Shown piece by piece: positions 2,097 through 5,188 of a DNA stretch of 36,447 nt. The stretch is from Sunxiuqinia sp. (GTDB taxonomy: Bacteria > Bacteroidota > Bacteroidia > Bacteroidales > Prolixibacteraceae). The position numbers were made by a program, and so were the translations under genes. The stretch spans positions 1-36,447 of the forward strand of contig QKCF01000262.1 in NCBI GenBank assembly GCA_003246935.1, written 5' to 3'. A model generated the notes under the pieces. It was not told where the DNA came from, did not search any database, and saw nothing but the letters and a program-made list of their open reading frames with translations. Position 1 is the first letter of the stretch. Each line of letters begins with the position of its first letter.

Positions 2097-4250
2097 ATGA
2101 AAGAAACTAAAGAATACAACGAATATACCGCCGGTGAAACTTCCGTTCCCGGCTTGCGAAGAAGAGACTTTTTCAAATTATTGGGCGGAGGTTTGTATGT
2201 CTTTTTTAATGTCACCGATGCCCTCAACGTTCTGGCAACCGAGTCAGAACAGCGCAGATCGTTGCCAACCGATTACAATGCATTTTTGCTGATCCATGAA
2301 GACGGTACTGTCTCTTGCTATACCGGAAAAATCGAAATGGGTCAGGGCGTAATTACTTCGCTGGCCCAGATGCTGGCCGACGAGCTGGATGTGGCCTACG
2401 AAAAAGTAAAAATGGTTATGGGAGATACAATGCTTTGTCCTTGGGACATGGGTACTTTTGGTTCCATGTCGACCCGCTTCTTTGGTCCGCCGTTGCGTGC
2501 CGCTGCAGCCGAAGCCCTGGCTGTTCTTTTGGATATGGCTGCAGAAAAACTTGGCATTTCTGCGGAGCAGCTAACAGTTGAAGACGGAGTGATCATCAGC
2601 AAACAAGATAAAGGGAAAAAAATTGCTTACCGGGAACTAACTTCAGGAAAAAAAATAGAACGTTACCTTGACCAGAAGCCCGAAGTGAAAGATTACTCGG
2701 AATTCCGGATCATGGGAAAATCATTCAACCATCAGGATGGTCGTCTAAAAGTAACCGGTGAAGCCAAATACACAGCCGACATTCGTGTGCCTGGCATGTT
2801 GTATGCCCGAATCTTACGCCCGCCTTCACACGGAGCCAAATTGGTTTCGGTCGATACATCAGAGGCAGAAAAACAGGATGGTGTTTTGGTGGTAAAAGAC
2901 CGTGACCTCATAGCTGTCCTGCACGAAAACCCGGAGAAAGCAGAAGAATCCCGCGATAAAATTAAGGCTGAATACGAATTCGATGAGAAAGACGTGAACG
3001 ATCAAAACCTGTTCGACTACCTTTTGAAAAATGCCCCGGAAGGACAAATCATTAACAGTCAAGGGGATTTAGACATAGGAAAAAGGATGGTTGACACGCT
3101 TGTTGAATCGGAATATTACAACAGCTATGTTGCGCATGCAACCATGGAAACGCACGCAGCATTGGCGCATATTGAAGATGAAAAGATCACTGTCTGGGCA
3201 TCAACCCAGACACCATTTCCTGCGCAAGAGACCATTTCCCGAGTAACCGGGTTTCCGCTTGAAAATGTCCGCATCATTCCTCCGTTTCTCGGAGGAGGAT
3301 TCGGAGGAAAAACCGCCCATAGCCAGGCCGTTGAAGCTGCCCGACTGGCCAAAATAACCGGCAAACCCGTTATGGTAGACTGGAGCCGTGAGGAAGAATT
3401 TTTTTACGACACATTCCGCCCGGCTGCTGTTGTACAAATTTCAACAGGAACTGACGCCAGTGGTAAAATCAACCTTTGGGATTACAAAGAGTATTATGCC
3501 GGAGAACGGGGATCTGATACCATTTATGACGTTCCTCACCAACGCACAATGGCTTTTGGCAGAGGATGGCGGGCACCCGAAGTTCATCCGTTTGCAACAG
3601 GAGCATGGCGGGCGCCTGGCAACAATACCAACACCTTTGCCCGCGAATCGCAAATTGATATAATGGCTGCCAAAGCTCAAACGGACCCCATCGAATTTCG
3701 GCTGAAAAACCTGACCGACCAACGGATGATCGGGGTACTGAAAGAGGTTGCTGAAAAAGCAGGATGGAAACCGGCGGCATCACCTAGTGGAAGAGGCTTC
3801 GGCGTAGCCTGCGGGTTCGATGCCGGAGCACACGTTGCCCATATTGCTGAAGTTGAAGTAGACCAAGCCACAGGACGAGTACAGGTAAAACGTGTTGTTT
3901 GTGCCCAGGACATGGGCTTCTGCATCAACCCTGAGGGAGCTACCATTCAAATGGAAGGCTGTATCAACATGGGGCTGGGCTATTCACTGACAGAAGAAGT
4001 TAAGTTTACCGGAGGAAAAATTGAAACGAAAGATTTTAGCAGCTATCAGCTTCCGCGGTTTTCATGGATCCCCAAGATTGAAACGCATATCCTCGAATTA
4101 AACGAGCCGCCTCAAGGTGGTGGCGAACCGGCAATCATCTGCATGGGAGCAGTGATTGCCAATGCCATTTTTGATGCTACAGGCGCCCGCCTTTACCATT
4201 TACCAATGACACCGGATAGAGTGCTGGATGCCCTGAAAAATAAATTATAA
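2097..4250 (+). CDS. Molybdopterin-binding large subunit, IorB-like aldehyde/xanthine oxidoreductase, Tat-exported
   Basis: The 717-aa catalytic subunit belongs to the xanthine oxidase superfamily. A twin-arginine signal, LRRRDFFKLLGGG at residues 20-32, sits ahead of a hydrophobic stretch, which suggests periplasmic location. Family motifs seen include EMGQGVITSLAQMLADEL near 80 (typical of IorB), the aldehyde oxidase hammerhead region KVTGEAKYTADIRVPGMLYARI near 220, PPFLGGGFGGK near 400, TGAWRAPG near 500, and the C-terminal GGGEPA motif near 680 that carries the catalytic glutamate. It forms a heterodimer with the 2Fe-2S subunit and needs the Mo cofactor handled by the fused accessory protein upstream. 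It ends an operon at a terminator 18 bases downstream. Hydroxylation of an N-heterocycle or an aldehyde is likely by family; the exact substrate is unknown. Confidence 0.93.
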   Translation: MKETKEYNEYTAGETSVPGLRRRDFFKLLGGGLYVFFNVTDALNVLATESEQRRSLPTDYNAFLLIHEDGTVSCYTGKIEMGQGVITSLAQMLADELDVAYEKVKMVMGDTMLCPWDMGTFGSMSTRFFGPPLRAAAAEALAVLLDMAAEKLGISAEQLTVEDGVIISKQDKGKKIAYRELTSGKKIERYLDQKPEVKDYSEFRIMGKSFNHQDGRLKVTGEAKYTADIRVPGMLYARILRPPSHGAKLVSVDTSEAEKQDGVLVVKDRDLIAVLHENPEKAEESRDKIKAEYEFDEKDVNDQNLFDYLLKNAPEGQIINSQGDLDIGKRMVDTLVESEYYNSYVAHATMETHAALAHIEDEKITVWASTQTPFPAQETISRVTGFPLENVRIIPPFLGGGFGGKTAHSQAVEAARLAKITGKPVMVDWSREEEFFYDTFRPAAVVQISTGTDASGKINLWDYKEYYAGERGSDTIYDVPHQRTMAFGRGWRAPEVHPFATGAWRAPGNNTNTFARESQIDIMAAKAQTDPIEFRLKNLTDQRMIGVLKEVAEKAGWKPAASPSGRGFGVACGFDAGAHVAHIAEVEVDQATGRVQVKRVVCAQDMGFCINPEGATIQMEGCINMGLGYSLTEEVKFTGGKIETKDFSSYQLPRFSWIPKIETHILELNEPPQGGGEPAIICMGAVIANAIFDATGARLYHLPMTPDRVLDALKNKL

Positions 4251-4267
4251 CACAAATTAGATCATCA

Positions 4268-4300
4268 AAGGACTCTTTCGATTCGAGGGAGTCCTTATTT
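4268..4300 (+). terminator. Rho-independent terminator of the Mo-hydroxylase operon
   Basis: An 8-bp perfect stem (AAGGACTC at 4268-4275 with GAGTCCTT at 4289-4296) is followed by a T-rich tail, 18 bases after the stop of the large-subunit gene. Confidence 0.85.
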
Positions 4301-4447
4301 ATTGCTCAACTTTTTCGATTTAATAGACCAAGTTGGCTACCGTTATTTCAATTATCATCATTCGGATTATTGCTGTTCGTTACTATGTGGCTTTGCCCAA
4401 GGTCGAATTCTAAGAATAGACTATTGTTTTTTTCAATTGCAGATGAT

Positions 4448-4704
4448 TCACCAATAGCTGCAAGCAATTCACCAAATCATGCAAATGGTTCACCACCCCC
4501 TGTAGACGATTCACTAACTCCGGCACACGATTCACCAATTCCTGCAGTTAAGGAATCCATAAAAGCAGTCTTTTCACCAAGTTTTCCGGGCAAGTCACCA
4601 AGATCATCAAACCATTCACCAAATTCAGCAGCTATTTTATCAATCCAATCGGATGTGTCACCAATTGGAACCGACGGTTCACCCACTGATGTATCCGCTT
4701 CACC
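4448..4704. repeat. Strictly phased 21-bp degenerate repeat array
   Basis: The word TCACC (or one-base variants) begins at 4448, 4469, 4490, 4511, 4532, 4574, 4595, 4616, 4658, 4679 and 4700. That is an exact 21-base step with two degenerate positions (4553 and 4637) and no insertion or deletion over 252 bases. The 13-16 bases between words are variable. Read on the minus strand it gives heptads of the form xx-[VILFM]-G-[ED]-x-x; read on the plus strand it gives heptads starting Ser-Pro. The minus-strand reading keeps a hydrophobic residue even at the two degenerate positions (I and M) but has an in-frame TGA at 4477-4479. The array touches the 3' end of the 162-aa minus-strand gene. It may be a decayed C-terminal heptad-repeat tail or an intergenic binding-site array. 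Confidence 0.8.
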
Positions 4705-5188
4705 GGGAGATCCCTGCAACAGCAATGTTTTTAAAATCGAGGTGATGCATAATCTCGCGAATTATCAACAGGTAGGCAGCAAAACCCAAATCATCGGGAA
4801 TGATATCCTGGCTTGCAGGTAAACCTTTCACGATCGCCGCAAACCGGTCGAACACATTCTCTAACTCAATTTGAGGAACAAGAGTTTCTCCTGTTTCCGT
4901 TTTGCTGGTATTAAAAGCCAAATCGGCGATTGCCTTTACCTGCGGATCATTTGATCGCAATATCAATTCTTCCTTAAACGCATCCTCTACTTCGGCTAAA
5001 ACTTCTTCCGTAAAGTTTATGGCCCGGTCTACTTCATTGTAAGTCGGTGGGAACGCGGAGTAAAATTGATCGGCCAGTTGTTTCCAACCGATATTTAGGC
5101 TTGTTTCGTCAACTCGGCCCCCTTGCTTGCGAACCAAACTAGTTGTGGTTTCGCCAATATTGAAATATATGTTGTGATTGCTTTTCAT
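4700..5188 (-). CDS. Hypothetical protein, 162 aa, next to the phased repeat array
   Basis: No family was recognised. The protein is soluble-looking, acidic and mostly helical in character, with no signal peptide or membrane segment. It opens MKSNHNIYFNIGETTTSLV and ends NIAVAGISR. It lies 101 bases downstream of the last permease of the exporter operon on the same strand, so it could be read through, but a GATCTTTG box resembling the Bacteroidota -7 element lies about 14 bases before the ATG and may give it its own promoter. Its stop codon (4700-4702) falls inside the last unit of the 21-bp array. A +1 frame change near 4726 would continue the protein into about ten Gly-Glu heptads, so a frameshifted longer ancestor is possible. 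Codon usage looks like that of its neighbours, which supports a real gene. Confidence 0.7.
   Translation of the reverse strand: MKSNHNIYFNIGETTTSLVRKQGGRVDETSLNIGWKQLADQFYSAFPPTYNEVDRAINFTEEVLAEVEDAFKEELILRSNDPQVKAIADLAFNTSKTETGETLVPQIELENVFDRFAAIVKGLPASQDIIPDDLGFAAYLLIIREIMHHLDFKNIAVAGISR

Follow-up and report, generated by a model that had tools for sequence, protein, structure and literature searches.

A probable dispersed intergenic minisatellite with a 21-bp unit in the genus Sunxiuqinia

The DNA analysed here (the window) is a stretch of 36,447 nucleotides from contig QKCF01000262.1 of the Sunxiuqinia sp. assembly GCA_003246935.1, and it contains a 21-bp repeat array between two convergent genes. 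To the left of the array lies the gene for the molybdopterin-binding subunit of a molybdenum hydroxylase (positions 2097 to 4250, plus strand; Pfam MoCoBD_1/MoCoBD_2), which is without a close orthologue in the congeners, the best matches there reaching 31 to 36%. The molybdenum hydroxylase operon is followed, ahead of the array, by a terminator-like hairpin with a T tail (4268 to 4296, plus strand). To the right lies the gene for a 162-aa protein (4700 to 5188, minus strand), the stop codon of which falls inside the last TCACC word (4700), that is, within the last array unit. This gene had been called an orphan in an earlier, sequence-only reading of the DNA, and the label was wrong: orthologues that are 71% identical occur in the congeners G002 and G003, and the gene is kept beside ABC-2 permease genes in G002 and near them in G003. 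The best family match of the 162-aa protein, to the Ppx/GppA phosphatases, stayed below threshold (E = 2e-4).

The array itself (4438 to 4710, plus strand) consists of 13 units of 21 bp with the core TTCACC on the plus strand, as defined by the phase test, the unit table, and the profile matches. Between 4448 and 4704, TCACC occupies 10 of the 13 slots at an exact spacing of 21 bp (starts at 4448, 4469, 4490, 4532, 4574, 4595, 4616, 4658, 4679, and 4700), an 11th slot holds TCACT (4511), and the others hold GAATC (4553) and TTATC (4637). There was no indel across the 13 units (273 bp). Units 1 to 5 (4438 to 4542, plus strand; TGCARAYGATTCACCAA...) are the best-preserved part and gave the top profile match (53.5 bits). 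Comparison of the units revealed that the core is replaced in unit 6 (4543 to 4563, plus strand; TGCAGTTAAGGAATCCATAAA), while units 7 to 13 (4564 to 4710, plus strand) are more diverged in the unit table and include unit 10 (4627 to 4647, plus strand), where the core is lost (TTTATC). Because the units are so diverged, TRF picked up mere fragments of the array. All 10 exact TCACC words within 4399 to 4750 share a single phase modulo 21; when the words were placed at random in 20,000 trials, the maximum in one phase was 5, and no trial gave at least 9. Similarly, for all 5-mers and periods of 10 to 60, the best run covered 4 slots in eight dinucleotide-shuffled whole windows versus 10 in the real sequence. 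The indel-free recurrence of TCACC-type words every 21 bases, as first noticed, is thus real and far beyond what shuffling and random placement produce.

The 21-bp unit was then sought elsewhere with a three-core pattern and with a 63-bp sequence profile built from the units. A second array was found in the same genome by both searches (G000:C134:16256-16448). The congener G002 carries two more, one at C10:297085-297333 (pattern match at C10:297156, and recovered by the profile too) and a second long array at C10:428577-428819 that was recovered by the profile. The best profile E-values for the four arrays ranged from 5e-14 to 2e-10, and the pooled units give the consensus TGCAGACGATTCACCAATTCT. 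No convincing array was found by the profile search in the congeners G001 and G003 and 57 other relatives, and our literature search found no description of the TGCAGACGATTCACCAATTCT repeat. Of the outcomes that the sequence-only reading had named as refuting it, a lack of recurrence does not hold: the unit recurs at three further loci beside unrelated genes, so that four non-orthologous intergenic loci in two species carry it. Two of the four lie between convergent and two between divergent gene pairs, with unrelated functions; the other refuting outcome, a lack of association with the 162-aa gene, does hold, as the other three arrays adjoin unrelated genes.

No unit order common to different arrays was clearly seen, and descent of the arrays from one fixed-order parental array was not significant, apart from a weak signal when the two found in this genome were compared (p = 0.03). 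One unit resembling unit 6 of the window array is discernible in every other array. Such units, in which a GGR-type word (for example, TGCAGTCAGGGGCCGAATAAG) takes the place of the core, lie at L016 1430-1740, L195 8050-8440, and L002 1560-1580, and may go back to a shared ancestral unit.

The C134 array sits between convergent rhomboid-like and YihY-like genes, and each of the four species has kept both. The stop-to-stop gap between these genes is about 295 bp here and about 35 to 50 bp in G001, G002, and G003. We therefore interpret the C134 array, about 245 bp in length, as an insertion in this genome; it is absent from the three congeners even though the G001 protein is 91% identical, and loss in three species would be a less economical explanation. 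Direct evidence for growth by whole units comes from the second G002 array (428 kb), which contains a recent, exact five-unit (105-bp) tandem duplication in which 101 of 105 bases are identical.

Several readings of the arrays as a known kind of element were examined and set aside. Folding of the array RNA on both strands was no better than that of shuffled sequences (z = 0.45 and -0.90) and there was no match in Rfam, so a structured RNA was rejected. An origin from phages or plasmids was rejected too: the annotated phage and plasmid collections had no meaningful DNA match to the array, and nine IMG/VR contigs with a two-unit pattern proved to be coincidences, mostly in open frames, with no array. 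The four arrays share no flanking leader or tail, no terminal inverted repeats were found (the arrays contain just short internal inverted repeats), and neither a target duplication nor terminal inverted repeats were seen at the C134 insertion. In these respects the arrays differ from a MITE of the BrickBuilt type, and such features would have indicated how the copies move.

To the sequence-only reading, the array might have been a row of binding sites on one face of the DNA. In this explanation, a protein would read a GC...TTCACC-type word on one helix face two turns apart, and both the core and the spacing would be under selection. Core positions 11 to 15 diverge by 9 to 18% per array, versus 26 to 46% for the other positions; divergence from the consensus is about 10% at C3, T11, C12, and A13 and reaches 59% elsewhere. 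Slow change at the GC..TTCAC positions is common to three arrays from two species (the window array on C405, the C134 array, and the first G002 array), whose site rates are correlated (rho = 0.56-0.64, p = 0.002-0.008). The observed core contrast was rarely reached in simulations of neutral growth and substitution, and heterogeneity of this kind is not easily obtained from neutral models of duplication. Moreover, the core tends to be preserved or lost as a whole: of 43 units, 34 have 0 to 1 core mismatches and 6 have at least 3, and the rest of the units that lost the core is hardly more diverged. Across about 57 units we counted about 350 substitutions and a single 1-bp indel (in C134), compared with 5 indels per 81 substitutions in partly noncoding sequence of a related genus, a contrast that may be inflated because the arrays were detected by their phase. 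Shared founder units could likewise account for part of the site-rate pattern, so the slow core and the scarcity of indels do not amount to proof of selection.

Iterons and other phased direct repeats bind proteins and have units of about two helical turns. The arrays resemble iterons in having units of about two turns with an apparently conserved core and a variable remainder, but differ in that no replication or partition gene was recognised beside any of the four, and binding here is putative. Against a functional site array are also the lack of a common gene context, its presence in only two of four species, the lineage-specific insertion at C134, and the lack of a candidate protein. In addition, the youngest array (G002, 428 kb) does not keep the core constant: TTCATT and TTCACT occur among its repeated units, and its site rates are not clearly correlated with those of the other three. 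What stands of the one-face idea is that the core and the 21-bp phase are kept beyond simple decay. We consider selected protein sites a possible explanation, although an unlikely one. A bolder version, which we regard as slightly more doubtful still, is that the arrays are spreading docking strips for a DNA-binding protein that reads GC...TTCACC every two turns, with the GRTGAACG unit of another genus (g7) using the same 21-bp spacing.

The heptads of the minus-strand reading and the stop in their frame (FA*FGE) are present as described earlier, and the heptads had been taken to suggest past selection on protein. This was not borne out. Comparison of the units with the consensus gave pN/pS values of 0.72 to 0.98 across the six frames, and no frame showed clear purifying selection; for the proposed minus-strand frame the pooled value was 0.98, and in the window array pN (0.36) exceeded pS (0.26). 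No three-base period in conservation was found along the unit. With pN/pS near 1 and no such periodicity, coding in any of the six frames was rejected. Heptads appear in every frame because any 21-bp repeat automatically yields a seven-residue periodicity. It could still be argued that the arrays are remnants of a heptad-repeat protein gene (LVNRLQE or GESSAGI), fragments of which were copied into intergenic DNA, the diversification and the keeping of frame dating from the coding state. Twenty-one base pairs are seven codons, indels are rare, and the second G002 array reads through as a long LVNxLQx run. In addition to the pN/pS values and the automatic heptads, however, second codon positions of the candidate frames are among the sites that vary most, stops occur in every frame in at least some arrays, and the profile search found no intact source gene in the four genomes. 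We therefore judge this origin improbable.

Even less probable is that the 162-aa protein once ended in the array as a C-terminal heptad tail in its own frame, which a stop has since split off. The array does abut the gene and overlap its stop codon, but the orthologues in G002 and G003 end at the equivalent place with no heptad tail and no TTCACC array downstream, the heptad frame differs from the frame of the gene, and the other three arrays stand beside genes unrelated to it; for the available relatives, the array-less orthologues refute the tail. Finally, a coincidence of chance or codon bias, for which only the shortness of the word speaks, can be practically dismissed in view of the randomisations and of profile matches at three other loci with E-values down to 1e-13.

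Because the unit recurs, was inserted at C134, was duplicated as whole units, and has no coding signature, we conclude that the array is probably a non-coding dispersed intergenic minisatellite, found in one genus as far as we searched and tied to no particular gene. A 21-bp seed unit would have entered intergenic DNA by insertion or copying and then grown into a head-to-tail array through whole-unit duplication, for which one G002 array provides the direct case. The units would afterwards accumulate substitutions until they differed from the consensus by about one third, and arrays would appear and vanish at non-orthologous sites regardless of the neighbouring genes. Slippage or unequal exchange presumably drives the duplication, and most copies are likely neutral or selfish. 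The minisatellite explanation by itself leaves the slow core and the near absence of indels unaccounted for, and the slow core counts against a simple neutral minisatellite since even decay would be expected there.

Arrays with a similar step were observed outside the genus. In line with a dispersed minisatellite, two genomes (G009 and G029) of g7, a genus of the same family, have arrays of 2 to 4 units with a 21-bp step and the unit GRTGAACG... at 16 intergenic places (L159-L174). Two of these (L168 and L170) share about 130 bp that carry direct repeats resembling AAAGTTATCAAC close to either end, and the sequences farther out are unrelated, which suggests a mobile element. A third genus (G167) has a 22-bp two-unit direct repeat, GGTGAACGATCGTCCGCTTGGC, at six loci; in the one copy that was read (L283, near 1500), the repeat lies between the inverted arms AGTTGTCCGC and GCGGACAACT, resembling a MITE- or REP-type element. 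Short 21-bp arrays with a TACGTTCACC core were seen, among the matches listed, in Prevotella sp. P5-92 and two rumen Bacteroidales MAGs (L058 2274, L056 6324, and L055 160, the last within long open frames), and a genome from another family of the class (G124, L279) has a 21-bp array of GARGCTTGGTGAACGAGTCAC in a style similar to that of the window array. The matches listed from the whole-collection pattern search were coding coincidences mixed with 7-bp repeats. The core word at 21-bp spacing was rejected as a trait of the order or class: pairs occurred over many spacings with no excess, by eye, above the coding background, and many of the spacings were divisible by three, as coding sequence would produce.

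Among described repeats, the nearest is BrickBuilt, which in Porphyromonas gingivalis forms a 23-nt minisatellite within a MITE and is present in 19 copies in one genome (PMC4596501). Like the arrays studied here, BrickBuilt is exclusively intergenic, has imperfect head-to-tail units of similar length in numbers from 1 to about 20, gains and loses whole units, and differs between relatives in its presence at a site. It differs in its period (23 versus 21) and unit sequence (consensus AGAYCATARTATCCTCTCRTRTG), in having a leader, a tail, and terminal inverted repeats, in its unit mismatch of 0 to 11% versus a divergence of about 33% here, and in copy number, as there are no more than two arrays per genome here. 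Prokaryotic satellites in general are likewise tandem repeats in short arrays. The abstract of a survey of them (PMC6749651) reports transposed non-coding families from just two species, Leptospira interrogans and Methanocella conradii; the difference here is a genus-limited family at four sites.

The arrays are thus probably a new, genus-limited dispersed family of an already known kind, the intergenic minisatellite, and add another family to the dispersed intergenic minisatellites of bacteria. The C134 locus offers a clean test case, with an array in one species and none at the corresponding site of a sister species in which the flanking protein is 91% identical. If they are due to selection, the high divergence of the units together with the locked 21-bp phase and the slow core would point to an undescribed DNA-binding protein.
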